Virus record (IMG/VR): IMGVR_UViG_3300046714_000279
Span: 1-48,499 of that record
Length of the DNA: 48,499 bases
Reading direction: 5' to 3' (one strand)
Source of the DNA: a virus
In this document: positions 2,968-17,405 of the stretch, piece after piece
How positions within the stretch are numbered: the stretch's first letter is position 1
How the letters are laid out: each line of letters opens with the position of its first letter
Translations under genes and position numbers: made by a program
Notes under the pieces: generated by a model
Told to the model about the DNA's origin: nothing
Database searches by the model: none
The model's input: the letters and a program-made list of their open reading frames with translations, nothing else

Positions 2968-3186
2968 TCACTGCGCAACGGCCAGCAGATACGCGCTGGT
3001 GCCGTTTGGCAAGTTGGTCTTGACGATGAGGCCCTTCTGCAAGAGGGCGCGCACGGTCCGCTCGTTGACGCGCGAGCTGTCGGCAATGAAGTAGGCGCCG
3101 CCGAAGACACTGCTCAGCAGCTTCCGGCCGCGCCGCATCCGGTATAGCACGGAGCGTTGCTCCGGGGTCAGGGCTGGGGCTCTCAC
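2968..3186 (-). CDS. Small winged-helix-like protein
   Basis: A 72-aa protein starting at GTG (3186) that overlaps the preceding TGA as GTGA. The middle reads FIADSSRVNERTVRALLQKG, a helix-turn-helix-like pattern, followed by a short beta hairpin (LIVKTNLPNGTSAYLLA) as in winged-helix DNA-binding domains. It is a possible small regulator. Family assignment is inference from the pattern. Confidence 0.75.
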   Translation of the reverse strand: MRAPALTPEQRSVLYRMRRGRKLLSSVFGGAYFIADSSRVNERTVRALLQKGLIVKTNLPNGTSAYLLAVAQ

Positions 3187-3524
3187 TTCGGCGGCTCCGC
3201 TCGGTCAGGCACGCCGTACTGCTCGTTCTCGGCCTCGACTTCCTTGACCCGCTTCAAGCAGTAGTCGCCGACGGTGCGGTAGAGCATGGCGCAGTCCGCC
3301 CGGTGAACGTCAGGGTGGGAGAAGCGGACGAACAGCACATCGCAGATGGCGGCGGCCAGCTCCGGCATGCCACCGACGATGACGCCGAACTTCGACTCCT
3401 TGGCCGTACACTCGAACCACTTGAGGTTGGTCCAAGCCTCCGGCCCGGTCGACCGACGCTTGCTGATCTCGACGGCCTTCTTGTAATCCCGCTCGGCGGG
3501 CCTCTCGGTCTTGTTGGTTGTCAT
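3183..3524 (-). CDS. Hypothetical protein, 113 aa
   Basis: Function not recognised. The ATG at 3524 opens with MTTN and has GAGGTAG upstream, the SD overlapping the stop of the HTH gene. The C terminus (EVEAENEQYGVPDR) resembles part of the protein at 18757-19167 (RLDAENERIGTPDR), suggesting a shared short domain. It is soluble, with three Cys and no membrane segment. Confidence 0.8.
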   Translation of the reverse strand: MTTNKTERPAERDYKKAVEISKRRSTGPEAWTNLKWFECTAKESKFGVIVGGMPELAAAICDVLFVRFSHPDVHRADCAMLYRTVGDYCLKRVKEVEAENEQYGVPDRAEPPK

Positions 3525-3530
3525 AGCTAT

Positions 3531-4196
3531 CTACCTCGGTACATCTTCCAGCACCGCCTTCAGCTTCGCGGCACGCCCGCGAAGATAGGGCGGCAAAGTC
3601 TCTTCCTCGACCACGGCGTCCAGGTACTCCGCGAACAGCCCCTGGCGTCTGGCTTGTTCGAGATCGGTGTCGCGAGGGCGCGAGCCGCCACCAGCAGCAC
3701 GCCGTCGGCGCCGCTCCTCCCAGCGTTCCGGGGTCATGCCCACGGTGAAGCAGATCCCGGCCTTGGCCGTGCGCTTGGTCAGCGTGCCGTAGGCAACGCC
3801 CATCTCGGCGCCGATCTGCCGCAGCGTCTTGCCCTGGTCGCGCAGCGCCTTCACCCGCTCCAGGTCGATCTTGATGTACACGCCGTGGTGGTGGCGCCCC
3901 AGGGAGTCGATGCGCATGGGCTCACCCGTCTCGTTCCTGCGCTTGCGGGCATGCTCCCGCTTGCAGGCCAGACACTGCCCGTTGATCGACTTGGCGCCCT
4001 TCTGGGTCAGGTCGTGGATCCCGGCCCGGCAGACCTTCAGCGGGTTCCGCTTGCGGCTCAGCTTGTGCTCGCGCATCCGGGCGCGCACTATGTCGAAGCT
4101 GCAGCCGAGCTGCTTCGCGATCTCGGTCACGGTCAGATCGGTGGCCATCAGCTCCTTGAGCTTCGGTATGTCGACCGCTACGCGAGGGCGGCCCAT
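3531..4196 (-). CDS. DNA-binding protein with two HTH-like segments and a Cys/His knuckle
   Basis: 221 aa, started at the ATG at 4196 (MGRPRV) because of the strong GGAGGAG 5 nt upstream and because it overlaps the RusA TGA (TGATG). A helix-turn-helix occurs near residues 15-45 (LTVTEIAKQLGCSFDIVRAR) and a second near 105-135 (KTLRQIGAEMGVAYGTLTKR). Between them, CRAGIHDL through CLACKREH forms a likely treble-clef or zinc knuckle. The same Cys/His style appears at the end of the HNH protein. The likely role is transcriptional regulation or DNA recognition. The target is unknown. Confidence 0.85.
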   Translation of the reverse strand: MGRPRVAVDIPKLKELMATDLTVTEIAKQLGCSFDIVRARMREHKLSRKRNPLKVCRAGIHDLTQKGAKSINGQCLACKREHARKRRNETGEPMRIDSLGRHHHGVYIKIDLERVKALRDQGKTLRQIGAEMGVAYGTLTKRTAKAGICFTVGMTPERWEERRRRRAAGGGSRPRDTDLEQARRQGLFAEYLDAVVEEETLPPYLRGRAAKLKAVLEDVPR

Positions 4197-10638: not shown

Positions 10639-11991
10639 TCAGGCGATGGCCGGCAGCGTGACCTTCGGCTCGGTCTCGCCCAGCAGGTGGCGCTGTGCCC
10701 GGATGGTGCGCGCCGATTCCAACAGCGCCTCGGCGCTGATCTCGGTGATGAGCGTGCCTCTCGGCTGGCGGCGGATCTGCGCCAGCTTGGCGCGCTTCAC
10801 CACTTCCCGGATCACGGCGGGGATGGTGCCAGCCAGCTCGTCGCCGACTTCGGTCAGATCGGCATTGGGCGGGATCACGCCAGCGCCGTAGTTGCGCAGC
10901 AGCTTCTGCACTGCGATGGCATCTGGCGGCGGGATCTCGATGATGGCATCGAGCCGGCCGGGCCGGCGCATCGCCTCGGTGATCTGCTCGACGTAGTTCG
11001 TCGTGGCCAGGGTGATGAGGTTCAGCTCCTTGGTGTCGATCCCGTCCACCGTATTCAGGATCTCGTTCATCTCGTCGTCCCGCTCCCCACTGGTGGCCGA
11101 GTCCACGTCTTCACAGAAGACGACGACAGCCGGGCTGGAGTAGGGCACCGAGAAGCGGATTGCAGCGGCCAGCTCCATGGCTCGCTTGATGTAGATGTAG
11201 GTGATGCCGGCCTGCTGCGCCTTCTTGGCGGCCACCAAGGCGGTCAGCGTCTTGCCCGTGCCAAAGGTGCCGGCCAGCAGCACGCTGCGCCGGATCGGCT
11301 CACCGTTGGCCACGAGGTCGTCCAGCCGATCGATCGGCGTGAACAGGTTGGTGGCGATGGCCGCCTCGGTGTCGTGGTTGAACACCAGCAGGCTTTCGTC
11401 CACCGATTCCACGTCCATGAACTTCGGTTCCGGTACCGGGTACGGATCGCCGTCTTCGTCGCAGAATGACAGCGATACCGCCTTGCCACGGTAGATCGAG
11501 TCGGTCTGCAGGTAGCGAGCCACGTCTTCCAGCAGCTCTTGCACGAACCTCTCATGCAGCCTGCGGACCGTGATCGAGACACGGAACAACAGCCGCTTCT
11601 GGCTGTTCTTGGCCACGCTCGGCTCGACCACGCCACCGATCTGCGGGGGCAGTGCGAACTGGCCCCAGGGGACTTGAAGCGAGGTACGGAATCCGGTCTG
11701 GACCGTCACCATCGCTGGCAACTGCGGACCGAAGAAGCCCCACTGCGTGATGTTCTCGACGAACCCGAACTTCTGGCGCAACACCTGGAACAGTGCATGC
11801 GCCCCGTCGTACGGATGCACGTCGTAGTCGCGGTGAAACACCGCCGCTTCTTCTTCGTACTTGATGCGCCGCTGCAGCACGTCGACAGCGTCCTTGAGCT
11901 TCAAGGAGTCGGGAATCGTGATGCACTCACCGTGCCTGCGGATCTCGGCCACGTTGACGACGGCTACCTTCTGATCGAGTGTTTGTGACAT
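10639..11991 (-). CDS. AAA+ ATPase (Cdc48/FtsH-like clade)
   Basis: 450 aa from the ATG at 11991 (MSQTLDQ), supported by AAGGAT and by the constant distance to the upstream hairpin leader. One AAA module: Walker A GTFGTGKT (241-248), Walker B VVVFCEDVD (289-297), sensor-1 Asn332 in LATTN, and RRPGRLD (342-348), the arginine-finger segment typical of classical AAA proteins. Residues 1-230 form an unknown N domain, probably for substrate or partner binding. AAA unfoldases or remodelers often pair with VWA or adaptor proteins; a VWA gene lies in the same arm, though 8 kb away. The target is unknown. Confidence 0.92.
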   Translation of the reverse strand: MSQTLDQKVAVVNVAEIRRHGECITIPDSLKLKDAVDVLQRRIKYEEEAAVFHRDYDVHPYDGAHALFQVLRQKFGFVENITQWGFFGPQLPAMVTVQTGFRTSLQVPWGQFALPPQIGGVVEPSVAKNSQKRLLFRVSITVRRLHERFVQELLEDVARYLQTDSIYRGKAVSLSFCDEDGDPYPVPEPKFMDVESVDESLLVFNHDTEAAIATNLFTPIDRLDDLVANGEPIRRSVLLAGTFGTGKTLTALVAAKKAQQAGITYIYIKRAMELAAAIRFSVPYSSPAVVVFCEDVDSATSGERDDEMNEILNTVDGIDTKELNLITLATTNYVEQITEAMRRPGRLDAIIEIPPPDAIAVQKLLRNYGAGVIPPNADLTEVGDELAGTIPAVIREVVKRAKLAQIRRQPRGTLITEISAEALLESARTIRAQRHLLGETEPKVTLPAIA

Positions 11992-12024
11992 TGCTCTATC
12001 CTTGTTGGTTGTCATGGGTTGCAC

Positions 12025-12081
12025 CGTGGCGAAGTGCCACGCTGCGCCGGGGACCACCAGCCCGGCAGTGGTTGCCACGCC
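12025..12081 (-). promoter_or_regulatory. Two-hairpin leader element E1 (before the AAA+ gene)
   Basis: Hairpin nearest the gene: CGTGGC (12025-12030) pairs with GCCACG (12036-12041) around loop GAAGT. Second hairpin: GCCGGG (12046-12051) with CCCGGC (12061-12066). A conserved box follows at 12067-12081 (on the minus strand GGCGTGGCAACCACT). The first stem ends 33 nt before the AAA+ ATG. See E2 and E3, which keep the pairing with different bases. Confidence 0.65.
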
Positions 12082-12110
12082 TGAGACAAGGCCGGCGTGG
12101 CCTTCGCCAG

Positions 12111-12215
12111 TCAGCGCCGCTTGCGCAGCTCCGATACCCACACGATCAGGGCGAAGCCGACCGCAACGGACAGCAGCCCCAGGAACGCACCGACCAGAAA
12201 CCAGAGCATCATCAT
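12111..12215 (-). CDS. Tiny membrane protein, 34 aa
   Basis: MMMLWFLVGAFLGLLSVAVG continues as FALIVWVSELRKRR: one membrane helix and a basic cytoplasmic tail. The first ATG overlaps the preceding TGA as ATGA. It is the fourth such small membrane gene in this arm. Function unknown. Confidence 0.6.
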   Translation of the reverse strand: MMMLWFLVGAFLGLLSVAVGFALIVWVSELRKRR

Positions 12216-12472
12216 GGCTGCACCTGCTGCGGCTCGGCCGCAGGTAGGAAGCGGGCTTGCCAGATCCGCTTGCGTTCGGCCAGCGCTTCCTCGGCCCGCA
12301 TCCTGGCATTGCGGGTGTGGATCACAGCATTGCCGGCCCGCATCCTGGCCTGCTGTGCCTCGCGTTCCTTGTGCTTGCACAGGAACAGCTCCTTCAGTGC
12401 CTCGGCCACGTCGGGCGACGGGCAGGTGGCTAGCTGGCGCTTCTGCGCCTTGGTGCGGCGGTACCGCCTCAC
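12212..12472 (-). CDS. Hypothetical basic helical protein, 86 aa
   Basis: GTG start (12472) overlapping the preceding TGA as GTGA. Basic, Arg/Lys/Gln-rich with a long helix (EREAQQARMRAGNAVIHTRN) of coiled-coil character. Function not recognised. Confidence 0.75.
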   Translation of the reverse strand: MRRYRRTKAQKRQLATCPSPDVAEALKELFLCKHKEREAQQARMRAGNAVIHTRNARMRAEEALAERKRIWQARFLPAAEPQQVQP

Positions 12473-12669
12473 GTTCGGATCTCCTTGGCAATGGCGCGGG
12501 CCTGCTGGTACAGCTCCACTGCGTCGTCGAGCTTGCTGAGGCAGTCCCTCATGTCATCGAAGTCGTCGGTGTCGCAGTCGATGACGTTGCAGGCTGCTTC
12601 CCGCAATTTCTCCGTGGCATGCTGCGCAAGCAGGGTGTTCTGCAGTTGTTGGATCTCGGTCTTGTTCAT
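12469..12669 (-). CDS. Hypothetical acidic helical protein, 66 aa
   Basis: MNKTEIQQLQNTLLAQHATE starts a helical protein with an acidic centre (DCDTDDFDDMRDCLSKLDDA). TAGGAG lies 5 nt upstream of the ATG. Function not recognised. Confidence 0.8.
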   Translation of the reverse strand: MNKTEIQQLQNTLLAQHATEKLREAACNVIDCDTDDFDDMRDCLSKLDDAVELYQQARAIAKEIRT

Positions 12670-12798
12670 GGCGTCTCCTATTCGTTGGTTGTCAGGGGAA
12701 AGGGAAAGACCCGCAGGAAAACCACCCGTCGGAAGGGGAGGGTCGGGAATTACGTTTCACGCGCGGCCCGTCAAGATCGCGCAACCTGCGGTGGTGTA

Positions 12799-13911
12799 CT
12801 ACTTCGCGCCGGCAGCCAGCAGCTTGCCGGCCTGGGCTTCGAGCTTCACGCGCTCGTCGGTGTGGGTGATCGAGCGGGCGTGCGCCGTGACTCCTTGCAC
12901 GATTTGCCACAGCGTGCGGGCTTCGCCTTCTTCGGCCTTGGCTGCAGCGACACTGGCCTTGGCCAGCGCCGACGTGAAGCCTCGTGCCTTGAGCCAGTCG
13001 AGTACCGAATCGTCCTTCTTGGACTGGTCCCCGATCAGCGTCTCTTGCGCCTTGGTGATGGCGTTGACGATCTGCTTGGGCGATTCCTCGCTGTAGCGCC
13101 GCAGCATGCGCCCGCCCTCGCTGGCGAACCGATCGGGTGCGCCGCTGGTGTGGCGGATCGCCAGCTCTTGCACGTTGGTCAGGCCCCAGATCGTGCGGTT
13201 GTCGCACACGCGGTTGTACAGGAATCCGACCAACGTCATGGTGCGGGCGCCGACTTCAGAGTTCGAGGCGATGAAGCCACGGAACAGCGGTTCGCTGGCG
13301 CCAGGGATCTCGATGGGCCGGTCAGGGTCGCACAGGAACACGAACAGATCGCGGTCGCTGGCGTAGAGCGTGGTCGCCCGCTTCGGATTCTTGGTTGCGT
13401 AGGACGCAGCCGGCACCTTCCAGCGCCCGTCTGCATTCACCTTCTGCACTGCCCGGCACACGTCGAGATCGTAGATCCGGCCGTACGTTGTGCTGGTCCA
13501 GCAGCGCGCGACGTTGTCGCCGTTGCTCTGCGCGTAGAGTAGCGCCTCCTCGCGGACGGCCCGGTGTTCGAGGCCCCATTGCAGATTGATGGCCGCCAGT
13601 TCTGGCGGCATCGTTCGCAGGTAGCCAACGCCGCTCGATGCGCCGGCCATGGCTGCGAACTGGCCGAAGGACCAGTGAGTCGGCAGCAGGTCGACCGGAT
13701 CATCTCGGCTCGGATCCTCGACGCGGATCCGCAGTTGCGGCGCAGCACCGTTGTCTTCCCTCAGCACGGCGCGAACGTTCTTCGGCTCGGTTGCGAGGGT
13801 CCAGGATTCCCGCTTGCGCTGCTCGACGTGCCGTTGCAGATCGTCGAGGGTCAGGAAGCGTTGATCGTCGGGCCGGCTGGCCCACTCGTTATGCAGTGTC
13901 TTGGCGTTCAT
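12799..13911 (-). CDS. DUF932-family phage/plasmid protein
   Basis: 370 aa with GGAGATG before the ATG. Features fitting DUF932: an N-terminal TxxxLxxLTPTHWSFGQ-like region (LLPTHWSFGQFAAMAGAS), LLYAQSNGDNVARCWTSTTYGRIYD, GFIASNSEVGARTMTLVGFLYNRVCDNRTIWG, then a helical C terminus. DUF932 proteins are widespread on phages and plasmids and have no settled biochemical role; some are suspected to act with recombination or anti-host functions. The gene is preceded by leader E2 and a good promoter, so it starts its own transcript. Confidence 0.88.
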   Translation of the reverse strand: MNAKTLHNEWASRPDDQRFLTLDDLQRHVEQRKRESWTLATEPKNVRAVLREDNGAAPQLRIRVEDPSRDDPVDLLPTHWSFGQFAAMAGASSGVGYLRTMPPELAAINLQWGLEHRAVREEALLYAQSNGDNVARCWTSTTYGRIYDLDVCRAVQKVNADGRWKVPAASYATKNPKRATTLYASDRDLFVFLCDPDRPIEIPGASEPLFRGFIASNSEVGARTMTLVGFLYNRVCDNRTIWGLTNVQELAIRHTSGAPDRFASEGGRMLRRYSEESPKQIVNAITKAQETLIGDQSKKDDSVLDWLKARGFTSALAKASVAAAKAEEGEARTLWQIVQGVTAHARSITHTDERVKLEAQAGKLLAAGAK

Positions 13912-13941
13912 AGTAGCTCATCTCCTAGCTACGGTCGGAAT

Positions 13942-14001
13942 GCACGCTTGCGAAGTGCAGACGTGCGCCGGGGACCGTTTCCCGGCATTGGCTGCCGCGC
14001 C
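13942..14001 (-). promoter_or_regulatory. Two-hairpin leader element E2 (before DUF932)
   Basis: GCACG (13942-13946) pairs with CGTGC (13962-13966); inside, TGC (13949-13951) pairs with GCA (13957-13959) around the same GAAGT loop as E1. Next, GCCGGG (13967-13972 region) pairs with CCCGGC (13981-13986). The conserved box lies at 13987-14001. The outer stem ends 30 nt before the ATG. A 39-codon ORF (14044 to 13925, starting MNTNMETRRAA) overlies the element and could be a leader peptide. Confidence 0.65.
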
Positions 14002-14051
14002 CTTTCCCGATGGCGGCGCGGCGGGTTTCCATGTTGGTGTTCATGGGCGGA

Positions 14052-14080
14052 ATCGTAGCAAGCTGACTAGCTGGCGTCAA
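14052..14080 (-). promoter_or_regulatory. Candidate leftward promoter for DUF932
   Basis: Minus strand: TTGACG (14075-14080), 17-nt spacer, TACGAT (14052-14057). The predicted start falls near 14045, just before leader E2, giving an untranslated leader of about 130 nt. Confidence 0.5.
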
Positions 14081-14327
14081 GCTGCAGTTTCGCAGCAGCC
14101 AGCCAGCGGTCCCGCACGATGCCGAGCAGCTTGCGGGTGTGGTCGGCGTCCAGCGCGCTGATTGCTCGCGTCGGTGCCTTGGCCCACAGCCCGGCCTTTT
14201 CGTTGCTGTAGGACGGGTGAACGTCGGTGCCGAACATATCCTCGACGAACTGCGTACCGCCCGTGTTGTGGATGTAGAGCGCCATGGCGAAGGCGCCTAG
14301 CTCGACATCGAACAGGGTCGGCGTCAC
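14067..14327 (-). CDS. Hypothetical protein, 86 aa
   Basis: I start at GTG (14327; TPTLFDVELG follows) because AAGGAG lies 8 nt upstream and GTGA overlaps the preceding stop. The central part reads FVEDMFGTDVHPSYSNEKAG; the C terminus is a basic amphipathic helix. Function not recognised. Confidence 0.78.
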   Translation of the reverse strand: MTPTLFDVELGAFAMALYIHNTGGTQFVEDMFGTDVHPSYSNEKAGLWAKAPTRAISALDADHTRKLLGIVRDRWLAAAKLQLDAS

Positions 14328-14749
14328 GGCGTCGGCTCCTTGGCTGGCGCAGGCGCGGGGATCTTCCACCCGTCTTCGAGCGGGCACTCGACGCGGTCCT
14401 TGCTCATGCGGCGAATGGTGTTCGTGTTCACGTCGACCAGCACGACGCCAGCATCGCCGACGCTGTTGCCCTCGCGCAGCAGTTCATCGATCATCGCGGC
14501 CGTGTCCGATTGAGCATGCGCGCGCGAGACGGGGCCATTCCAGATTCCAAGCGACAAGTTGCCTTCGATGTGATCGTGGCACACGCCGACGAAACGTGCG
14601 GCGCCGTACTCCGGGTCGCCTTCTCGCCCTTGCATGCGCTCGCGCCATTTGGTCAGCAAGGCACCAAGCTGGCTCGCGTGCCAGTGCAGGTACACGAACG
14701 GCGAGTACTGCTGACCATCGGTAAAGACCACCAAGACACGGTTTCCCAT
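14324..14749 (-). CDS. Hypothetical protein, 141 aa
   Basis: Started at the ATG at 14749 (MGNRVLVVFTDGQQ) with AGAGAGATG upstream; an in-frame ATG 42 nt further up lies inside leader E3. Mixed alpha/beta; contains YSPFVYLHWHASQL, ARFVGVCHDHIEGNLSLGIW and VLVDVNTNTIRR. Function not recognised, though its arrangement suggests a soluble enzyme-like domain. Confidence 0.82.
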   Translation of the reverse strand: MGNRVLVVFTDGQQYSPFVYLHWHASQLGALLTKWRERMQGREGDPEYGAARFVGVCHDHIEGNLSLGIWNGPVSRAHAQSDTAAMIDELLREGNSVGDAGVVLVDVNTNTIRRMSKDRVECPLEDGWKIPAPAPAKEPTP

Positions 14750-14779
14750 TGCATCTCTCTCTAGTAGTGCGATCGGTTC

Positions 14780-14837
14780 ACACGCCAGCATCGTGCCGCC
14801 GTGTCCGGGGATCGCGGCCCGGAATGGTTGCCGCGCC
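14780..14837 (-). promoter_or_regulatory. Two-hairpin leader element E3
   Basis: ACACG (14780-14784) pairs with CGTGT (14800-14804), with inner GCA/TGC (14788-14790, 14794-14796). Then CCGGG (14805-14809) pairs with CCCGG (14818-14822), followed by the conserved box at 14823-14837. The outer stem ends 30 nt before the ATG at 14749, and the box begins just after the stop of the upstream gene. Confidence 0.6.
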
Positions 14838-14839
14838 TG

Positions 14840-15292
14840 TTACTTGGCCGGCGCGGCCGTGGCCTTGGTCCGCCTGCAGCGTGCAAGATCCATGTCGCCG
14901 GCATTGCGACCGGACCAGACGTGACCGTCGGGGCCAATGAATCGGAACGTGCGCACCGGATAGCGCCGTCCGAACCCGTAGCCGTACGATTCATGCACTC
15001 GGCCGAGAATGTTGAACTTGGCCGTGCCGGGCCAGTTACCGAGCCGGTAGACGTAGCGCTTCCAGCCGGTGGCCGTCCTGCGCTCGTGCGTGCCGCCGTC
15101 TGGCACGTCGACTGTCGTCAGGTAGAGGATTGCGTGCCCGTCCGAGACCATGGCAAGGCGCTCGTGTTCGGCTGCACAGACGTAGCAGATCCGGCGCCCA
15201 TCGGGGCAAGTGGCATAGCCGCTGGCGCCACCGCTGGCCGGTGGCTTCGGGAAGGTGGCGCCGCATTCGGCGCAGATCGGTTGCGATTCCAT
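14840..15292 (-). CDS. Zinc-ribbon protein, 150 aa
   Basis: Starts MESQPICAECGATFPKPPAS; Cys pairs CAEC (7-10) and CYVC near residue 40 form a zinc-binding head. The remainder is beta-rich with many Tyr/Arg/Gly (YRLGNWPGTAKFNILGRVHE). The basic C terminus is RCRRTKATAAPAK. The ATG lies 2 nt after the preceding TAA. Function unknown. Confidence 0.82.
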   Translation of the reverse strand: MESQPICAECGATFPKPPASGGASGYATCPDGRRICYVCAAEHERLAMVSDGHAILYLTTVDVPDGGTHERRTATGWKRYVYRLGNWPGTAKFNILGRVHESYGYGFGRRYPVRTFRFIGPDGHVWSGRNAGDMDLARCRRTKATAAPAK

Positions 15293-15294
15293 GG

Positions 15295-15759
15295 TTAGAA
15301 CCAGGAAGCGAGCATCGGCTCGCTGCCGTCGGTGTTGGCGCGCTGGACGATGGCCAGCGCACGGCGGTACTCGCTCATGTAGCCAGAATGCCGGGCACGA
15401 TTGCGGACCGCATCCTTGACGGCCTTTTCGGGTCGGCGGCGGTAACACGCGTCGATCCATTCGCACCAATTCTCCTGGCCGTTGTGCGCATCCTTGACGA
15501 TCATCGCGGCGACGCTCGGCGTTGCGTAGCCAAGTGACTCGCAAATCACGTGCGCGCAGAGGCGCGGGTACCGGCGCAGGAAGTAGTCACGATCCTGGGC
15601 GCGGCCGTGCCCGGTGCGCTTGATGTGCAGATCGGCCTCCCGTTGCGTCTTGTAGGTGGCCAGGACGTGCTTGTCCGGATCGAAGTGATGCGAGTGAAGT
15701 AGATCGGCGTCGACGATGCAGAATGCGTCCGAGCCATTCTGTGCTGTAGTGAGTCTCAT
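15295..15759 (-). CDS. Hypothetical protein, 154 aa
   Basis: TGGAGATG precedes the ATG (MRLTTAQNG). It is soluble with several His, Tyr and Trp (LLHSHHFDPDKH, GQENWCEWIDACYRRRPEKA). No family recognised. It is preceded by leader E4. Confidence 0.82.
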   Translation of the reverse strand: MRLTTAQNGSDAFCIVDADLLHSHHFDPDKHVLATYKTQREADLHIKRTGHGRAQDRDYFLRRYPRLCAHVICESLGYATPSVAAMIVKDAHNGQENWCEWIDACYRRRPEKAVKDAVRNRARHSGYMSEYRRALAIVQRANTDGSEPMLASWF

Positions 15760-15787
15760 AGCATCTCCAAAAGGGCGGGATTGCCCG

Positions 15788-15827
15788 GCACGGGACCCCG
15801 TAGGATGCCGTGCCCGGCAAGCCGGGC
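15788..15827 (-). promoter_or_regulatory. Leader hairpins E4
   Basis: GCACGG (15788-15793) pairs with CCGTGC (15808-15813), and GCCCGGC (15812-15818) with GCCGGGC (15821-15827). The architecture and the distance to the ATG (30 nt) match E1-E3, but the conserved box is not clear, so it is a related or convergent element. Confidence 0.5.
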
Positions 15828-15845
15828 CGTGCTTTGGTCAGGCTC

Positions 15846-16133
15846 TCATTTGTCCCCCTTCCATTCCCAAACGAACGGGTAGAAGCAACCATCGGCCCAT
15901 TGCAGACGGAACGTTCGACGGTGCCCGGCGATAAATGGGGAGCCGGAAAGGCCGTGCCTGTCACCCTCGAACACGTACCGATGCACTACCGGGCCAAGCG
16001 CGCTACGGCCGCGCTGGCCGTACTCGGCGGGAATGACGATGTAGCCAGCTCTTGCCAGCATGCGCAAGGTGCTCTTGTGCGTGACCGGGCGCCAGCCCGG
16101 CATCACGTTGTGGAATGCGCCAGCGCCTAGCAT
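15846..16133 (-). CDS. Hypothetical protein, 95 aa
   Basis: GAGGAGGAG lies 2-3 nt before the ATG, which overlaps the end of the upstream gene by 7 nt. An N-terminal helix-turn-helix-like stretch (THKSTLRMLARAGYIVIPAEYG) is followed by beta strands with aromatics (WADGCFYPFVWEWKGDK). It is a possible small winged-helix protein; unassigned. Confidence 0.8.
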   Translation of the reverse strand: MLGAGAFHNVMPGWRPVTHKSTLRMLARAGYIVIPAEYGQRGRSALGPVVHRYVFEGDRHGLSGSPFIAGHRRTFRLQWADGCFYPFVWEWKGDK

Positions 16134-16513
16134 GGCTCCTCCTCGATATCCTCGAATTCGCCGCGAGAATTCGGCTCGGACGGATCGTCCGCATACAAGT
16201 AGGCAAGCTGCTCGGCGTCGCCCTCTGCGAATGCCATTTGCGCCGCAGTGTAGTCGGCGAAGTACTCGGCGTCGGTGTCCCCTGGCCGTAGCGTCAGAAA
16301 GGCGAGCAGAGCGTAGAGGGTTTCGTCGGAATCATCGGCGTGCAACGGCGAGGGCCGAAACTGGTCGCCTTCGAACAGTACCGTGCCGTTCGGTGCGCGC
16401 ATTTCGTAGCCTAGGCGCGAGCGCTCAAGGCCGACGGTCGCAATCGACCAAACGGCGAGACTGTAGCCTAATTCGAGCCGCACGTGCCGCAGGATGTCGC
16501 GTGTCGTTTTCAT
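16127..16513 (-). CDS. Hypothetical acidic protein, 128 aa
   Basis: Starts MKTTRDILRHVRLELGYSLA with GGAGG upstream. The N-terminal half is beta-rich; the C-terminal half is strongly acidic (DDSDETLYALL, DIEEEPC). DNA-mimic-like acidity is notable, but no function is recognised. Confidence 0.82.
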   Translation of the reverse strand: MKTTRDILRHVRLELGYSLAVWSIATVGLERSRLGYEMRAPNGTVLFEGDQFRPSPLHADDSDETLYALLAFLTLRPGDTDAEYFADYTAAQMAFAEGDAEQLAYLYADDPSEPNSRGEFEDIEEEPC

Positions 16514-16516
16514 GGC

Positions 16517-16783
16517 TCAATCGCCTCCATACGCTGCGTAGGAGTCTGCCGCGCGGCGCAACAGCGTCGCGGCGAGGGCGAGCCGAGCCTTAGCCTTGGC
16601 GTGCAAATGCGCACGGCCGCCGGCAGTCTCGGTACGAGTCGCGACCGTGCAATAGGCACGTGCGCATTCGAGCAGGTCGCATGCCTCACGGGCATCGTTG
16701 AGCATCGCGCCGCATGCGAGCGGCACGACAGAGAAAGGGGCATCTGGCGCAGGAATCGCTGCGCGCGGAAACGGGGTTTGCAT
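16517..16783 (-). CDS. Hypothetical Ala-rich helical protein, 88 aa
   Basis: TGGAGATAG lies upstream of the ATG (MQTPFPRAAIP). The C-terminal 60 residues are helical and Ala/Leu/Arg-rich (KAKARLALAATLLRRAADSY). A hairpin CCGAGC/GCTCGG lies 24 nt upstream (16807-16823), like the other leaders. It is the first gene leftward of the control island. Confidence 0.75.
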   Translation of the reverse strand: MQTPFPRAAIPAPDAPFSVVPLACGAMLNDAREACDLLECARAYCTVATRTETAGGRAHLHAKAKARLALAATLLRRAADSYAAYGGD

Positions 16784-17388
16784 CTCGCTATCTCCAGACG
16801 GGAATACCGAGCATCCGGCTCGGCAACGGTCGGCCTCGTTCCAACACGATTCCGACGCAAGCGTCCTGTTGCCAAGGCGCTAGCGTCGGCGCACCATTCT
16901 CCTTTGGCACACCGTGTTCGAGTCAAGTCGATAGACTGTGCTTGTGCTTTGGTGACAGTCTCTACGCAATCTCGCACCATGCCATTGTTGATACCGGAGA
17001 ATGGGCACTATCTCCGCGCTGGGTCTCTATTCGGTATGCCCAGCGAACCACCATGCTCGCGCATGGGCCCCGCTGTTGGTTGGCCTCAATGCCGGTTGCT
17101 GCCGGCTCTGTTCGCGACCGTGCTTGGCATGCGCACGTCCACGTTGCGGGTGAGGCGATTGGATTGTCCCGTCCTTGCGGACGGTCGCGGCCGAGCCGGA
17201 CGGTCGATACTGACTGTTCTCGATGCGTCGCGGCGGATCCACCCGTTGTGCGGGGTCGGTTGCCATTCCGCCGGCCATGCCCCACAGCGTCACTGTTCAA
17301 ACCGGCAGACGCCGGTATAGCGTCTGTCCAGCGCTTGCCTAGCTAACAAGACCCTAATCTGTGCGATGGCACAACATTAGGACACGCC

Positions 17389-17405
17389 GTTAGGGTCACC
17401 CTAAC
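17389..17405. promoter_or_regulatory. Perfect operator-like palindrome GTTAGGGT-C-ACCCTAAC
   Basis: Eight-base arms around one central base. Half-sites recur nearby: ACCCTAA at 17351, TTAGG at 17377 and ACCCTAAC at 17640-17647. GCTAAC followed by ACCCTAA is repeated at 17342 and 17631. This is typical of a multi-site binding array. Confidence 0.6.

Follow-up and report, generated by a model that had tools for sequence, protein, structure and literature searches.

The sequence analysed here, hereafter the window, is the whole of IMG/VR virus record IMGVR_UViG_3300046714_000279 (48,499 bases), a phage with podovirus-type genes. Its terminase is ∼22–25% identical to those of SIO1/CW02-type phages, and searches of IMG/VR with exact peptide patterns of its AAA+ protein or terminase detected no close relatives. 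A leftward gene run extending from ∼16.8 kb to 10.6 kb carries three elements, designated E1, E2, and E3. Of the run's five larger intergenic gaps they occupy three, where they separate blocks of overlapping genes. The elements, the genes that follow them and an adjoining promoter-like site are arranged as follows:

10639–11991, minus strand: AAA+ ATPase gene, downstream of E1 (phrog_10440; ∼50% identity to Schitoviridae proteins)
12017–12108, minus strand: E1, three-hairpin element before the AAA+ gene (model R1, 99.4 bits, E 5e-17); stem0 in the region 12101–12094/12081–12074, then the linker, stem1, and stem2 (end 12021)
12799–13911, minus strand: DUF932-like gene, downstream of E2 (phrog_1362; Pfam match slightly under the cut-off)
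13938–14029, minus strand: E2, three-hairpin element before the DUF932 gene (model R1, 94.1 bits); first stem0 base 14022, stem2 end 13942
14052–14080, minus strand: sigma70-type promoter-like site adjoining E2 upstream (TTGACG-17-TACGAT, TG before the second hexamer; 9/12 matches)
14324–14749, minus strand: gene of unknown function (141 aa), downstream of E3
14776–14864, minus strand: E3, three-hairpin element before gene 14749 (model R1, 93.5 bits); first stem0 base 14857, within the end of the upstream gene, stem2 end 14780

The three downstream genes are mutually unrelated, and all of the elements lie on their sense strand. The 141-aa product of gene 14749 has no match in Pfam, PHROG, or phages. 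The promoter-like site, which is a consensus match, is present before E2 only among the three elements. Upstream of the first leftward gene is an apparently non-coding stretch of 617 nt (16784–17400, minus strand) that folds far better than shuffled sequences (z -4.1; z -4.9 for the sub-stretch 16801–16920) and had no match in the phage records searched; it may represent a non-coding RNA or a leader that is long and structured.

When E1 was used as a BLAST query against the window it recovered E2 (E=1.2e-5), and the three elements, each of ∼90 nt, share 63–71% pairwise identity; as judged by sequence comparison, they are diverged, homologous copies of one minus-strand element. A covariance model trained on E1–E3 themselves (R1) returned the three at ∼1e-16 in a scan of the window, and nothing else plausible was detected up to E=10. 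The first-pass annotation had recognized the same order of two stem-loops and a shared box in E1–E3, and had proposed a duplicated family of cis-acting RNA elements that extended to E4 (15788–15827) and to a shorter hairpin before the 16783 gene. The family is supported for E1–E3 by compensatory change, common strand, spacing, unrelated downstream genes and the absence of a consistent reading frame, but R1 matched neither of the two further candidates in the window at E≤10. A match to the box in E4 needs three mismatches, and with ≤3 mismatches chance alone would give ∼130 sites in the window. E4 and the 16783 hairpin are best described as separate stable hairpins located in further gaps of the leftward run.

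Each copy comprises, in order, stem0 (8 bp), an ARCCA linker, stem1 (6 bp, CCGGG type), and stem2 (10 positions with a 5-nt loop). Stem0 has the shared box, GGCGYGG, as its 3′ arm, and its 5′ arm (GCCRCGCC) is located 12–13 nt upstream; the leader had previously been described as two hairpins and a box, all of which are present, but this third, 5′ hairpin had been overlooked and the element starts earlier than was thought. Stem0 (GCCRCGCC...GGCGYGGC) forms 8 bp in all three copies, with one A-U/G-C compensatory pair. RNAalifold, unaided, produced the same three-hairpin fold with 24 pairs, in which 95.8% of the pair cells across the three sequences are standard pairs, compared with at most 48% in a control with slid pairing partners. 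Six of the 24 pairs are changed on both sides among these three sequences from one genome; the covariation check proposed earlier was run between the three copies, no homologue having been found outside this genome. The consensus energy is -47.2 kcal/mol as against -20.7 ± 3.1 in 1000 column shuffles (z -8.6; 0/1000 as good), which preserve conservation and gap classes and do not model the relatedness of the copies. In stem2, 27 of 30 cells are paired; permuting the 3′ arm 100,000 times reached this value twice. Folded singly, the copies are of unremarkable stability for G+C-rich DNA (z -0.95 to -1.84), and the case for structure therefore rests on the comparison between copies. Within that comparison the compensatory changes come from stem0 and stem2; stem1 is almost invariant, so covariation provides no test of it. 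A pseudoknot between the linker (columns 38–40) and the stem1 loop (columns 55–57), in which 8 of 9 cells pair, was set aside because three pairs are too few. Taken together, E1–E3 are very probably a real structured RNA element acting in cis.

The distance from the end of stem2 to the start codon is 29 nt for E1 (ATG at 11991) and 30 nt for both E2 (13911) and E3 (14749), so that the near-fixed spacing described earlier holds and its value, then given as 30–33 nt, is amended. The distance from the upstream stop codon to stem0 varies (+10 nt in E1, +44 nt in E2, and -18 nt in E3), and in E3 the 5′ arm of stem0 is located within the last codons of the upstream gene, with the stop codon in the stem0 loop. 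Fixed spacing to the ATG and variable spacing to the upstream stop indicate that the element goes with the downstream gene. Putative ribosome-binding sites fall outside the hairpins, and the 29–30 nt interval is unconserved among E1–E3, save for a weak likeness between E2 and E3. The sequence TGACAACCAAC is found in four exact copies in the window (3513, 9404, 12004, and 12684, minus strand), where 0.5 would be expected even if one mismatch were allowed; two of these are gene starts reading MTTN, the third follows E1, with an ATG at 12016 that is in the reading frame of the AAA+ gene, and the fourth precedes the 12669 gene. It was not counted as part of the element.

Searches beyond this genome detected no homologue of E1–E3 in IMG/VR (among the matches listed), GTDB genomes, INPHARED, or Rfam, although they used exact-match patterns or selected loci and a diverged homologue could be missed. 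Of the Rfam models, only tRNA reached the gathering threshold in the window and there was no relevant weak match, and blastn of the E1 and E2 leaders against INPHARED phages gave nothing relevant. A pattern of GGCARCCA plus stem1 matched at least 119 viral stretches, nine of which had a stem-like 5′ arm and looked like chance; a stricter pattern of box plus stem1 matched no viral and 18 genome stretches, judged to be chance by reading and by R1. Likewise, R1 detected no homologue in 115 loci (70 AAA+ loci and a set of 45, among them a 97-kb contig that encodes a DUF932 relative). Two R1 matches were rejected, one of 24.8 bits in Mesorhizobium phage Cp1R7A-A1 (L019) that falls on a terminator-like intergenic hairpin of that phage, and one in a phage with an AAA+ relative (L289) that is a single hairpin. 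Between positions 1354 and 8816 of L019, Cp1R7A-A1 has large intergenic regions that contain the terminator-like hairpin, repeats resembling GGTTAAGGTAAACG and, ahead of several genes, a recurring GTCCAGAATTGCTTTACA...GTCAACGCAAACGGAGTTT block. In locus L289 a G+C-rich hairpin precedes the ATG of a VWA-like gene by 25 nt and another precedes the AAA+ ATG by ∼32 nt (3164–3221 and 3881–3938), and a similar CAAC...CTGGAGAT ribosome-binding site follows each.

Leaders of DUF932 genes in other phages show an apparent tendency toward structure, which the three-hairpin leaders fit. Among 31 relatives the DUF932 leaders have a mean z of -1.65 compared with -0.51 for the other leaders of the same contigs (P 7e-4), a comparison that relies on rough gene calls. 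On the 97-kb contig, from a distant phage with a DUF932 protein ∼42–47% identical to that of the window, a stem-CAACC-stem arrangement is found at two sites only, before the DUF932 gene and before a small ORF ahead of it (0.1 expected, with a descriptor written after this case had been seen); the likeness to E1–E3 is suggestive only. In nine IMG/VR loci a different hairpin, modelled as R2, is located ∼30 nt before DUF932 genes:

L139, 2950–2980: R2 hairpin
L141, 2963–2993: R2 hairpin (recovered by model R2; absent from its training set)
L142, 1372–1402: R2 hairpin
L143, 2930–2960: R2 hairpin
L144, 2922–2952: R2 hairpin
L146, 2933–2963: R2 hairpin
L148, 2932–2962: R2 hairpin
L246, 3094–3124: R2 hairpin
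L249, 5331–5361: R2 hairpin

All four core pairs of this hairpin covary (28/28 cells paired, 12 double-change cells), its loop is mostly AGGGC(T/A)TTGTACG, and an exact pattern search returned seven loci, in every one of which it precedes DUF932. The R2 hairpin is absent from the window and has no sequence similarity to E1–E3.

The two parts of the element differ in what is conserved. Stem0 and stem1 have 24 invariant columns of 28, as against 9 of 20 in stem2 (P 0.004). Stem0, the linker and stem1 thus keep sequence plus shape, from which a recognition half may be inferred, while stem2 keeps mainly shape, which suggests a spacer or insulator; this division is our inference. E1–E3 probably serve as a common signal through which three messages from a single gene cluster are controlled or protected. 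The explanation that we tentatively prefer, and hold to be reasonably plausible, is a duplicated three-hairpin mRNA leader with recognition and insulator halves, acting in cis on its own downstream gene. According to this proposal, the three leader copies would have spread by duplication, and each, presumably transcribed as part of the message, would act on the gene that starts 29–30 nt downstream. Stem0, the ARCCA linker and stem1 would be recognized by a putative trans-acting RNA-binding factor of phage or host origin. Stem2, which ends just outside the expected 30S footprint, would serve as a shape-only insulator that keeps the G+C-rich RNA further upstream away from the ribosome-binding site and protects the 5′ side of the message. 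Translation or message stability of the AAA+, DUF932, and 14749 genes would in this way come under shared control. A more specific form of the proposal, which we regard as rather doubtful, is a post-transcriptional regulon in which the stem0-ARCCA-stem1 half is read by a single RNA-binding protein that the phage encodes for this purpose, perhaps the product of one of the three genes, and an ancestral form of the leader precedes the DUF932 genes of distant phages. Shared post-transcriptional control of several phage genes becomes directly testable here with small reporter constructs.

The main rival to a cis-acting leader of this kind, unlikely but to be taken seriously, is that the elements are sites for message processing or stabilization, at which a host RNase (RNase III or E) cuts the long transcript of the run, as at the intercistronic RNase III sites of phage T7, and the ends so formed are protected by the hairpins. 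Such a mechanism would require no dedicated factor. The location of the elements at three of the five larger gaps, between blocks of overlapping genes, would suit such a role, as would the conservation of stem shape in stem2. However, the stems are short (6–10 positions) and interrupted, whereas typical RNase III targets are longer, mostly paired stems, and neither the strong sequence conservation of stem0, the linker and stem1 nor a fixed distance to the ATG would be needed for processing that depends on shape only. The repeats might instead be pieces of small reading frames, a possibility that we consider extremely improbable. Beyond the first indel, E1 (VPGAAWHFATV) and E2 (VPGARLHFASV) do have a peptide frame in common that is conserved in part, and the E1 frame stays open into the AAA+ gene. 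Against this, AAA+ homologues align from the annotated start of that gene, the E2 frame is out of register with its gene and ends at a TAG, E3 differs in the shared frame, and the differences between copies follow pairing. Indels shift the frames between copies and no frame is consistently conserved, in agreement with the first-pass annotation, which had noted an overlapping peptide frame in E2 that shifts from copy to copy. A short frame of 39 codons (14042–13924, minus strand) passes through E2 to a TAG located 10 bases before the DUF932 ATG, and could possibly encode a leader peptide, unconserved in E1 or E3.

Roles at the level of DNA or of the elongating polymerase are less likely than RNase processing. 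The elements could be binding sites for a DNA-binding protein (operators or promoters), as proposed for the ESAS repeats discussed below, or boundaries that favour recombination between gene blocks. Their position at block boundaries, the promoter-like site just before E2 and the precedent of ESAS are consistent with this, but a protein that reads DNA sequence does not predict that pairing is kept while sequence changes, or that orientation and spacing follow the downstream start codon, and the reading is improbable. It is also quite improbable that the hairpins bind the elongating RNA polymerase in cis and suppress pausing or termination in the manner of HK022 putRNA, which the elements resemble in their adjacent hairpins and similar total size; against it are the presence of three copies within one gene run, their constant spacing from start codons and the absence of an Rfam match.

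Among known systems, intrinsic terminators are G+C-rich hairpins with a T run after them; no T run follows the hairpins of E1–E3, and no terminator-like site was found at any of the three. E1–E3 match the covariance model of no described Rfam family. The intercistronic RNase III sites of T7 are likewise hairpins between genes of one phage operon, whereas E1–E3 are arrays of three short hairpins with a conserved linker and sequence. The R2 hairpin resembles the present leaders in that it covaries and precedes a homologous DUF932 gene, with ∼30 nt between it and the gene start; it differs in being one hairpin with a conserved loop (AGGGCTTTGTACG), present at one site per locus and before DUF932 only. 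HK022 putRNA consists of two stem-loops in ∼70 nt, acts without a phage protein and suppresses pausing and termination via the zinc-binding domain of the RNA polymerase β′ subunit; each early operon has one, with putL located directly after an early promoter and putR ∼270 nt further down from such a promoter (PMC9378689). E1–E3 are similar to these ∼70-nt elements in representing cis-acting phage RNA with adjacent stem-loops, but have three hairpins, occur as three copies inside a gene run, and have a promoter-like site before E2 only.

The closest published kind known to us is the ESAS of cluster K mycobacteriophages. In those phages a subset of the non-structural genes carries the repeated SAS and ESAS sequences upstream, close to the start codon. 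ESAS contain imperfect 17-bp inverted repeats immediately before the start region; Pope et al. (2011) reported little evidence for hairpins at the RNA level and favoured DNA binding (PMC3203893), and later work placed SigA-like promoters in ESAS (PMC11373665). At E1–E3 no SAS-type repeat of 13 bp was found in the few nt next to the start codon, nor an ESAS-type pair of ∼17-bp inverted repeats with differences that do not support pairing; E1–E3 differ in keeping three shorter hairpins by compensatory change and in being represented by three copies only. Repeated start-associated leaders are thus an already known kind, and the conserved RNA fold is the new part.
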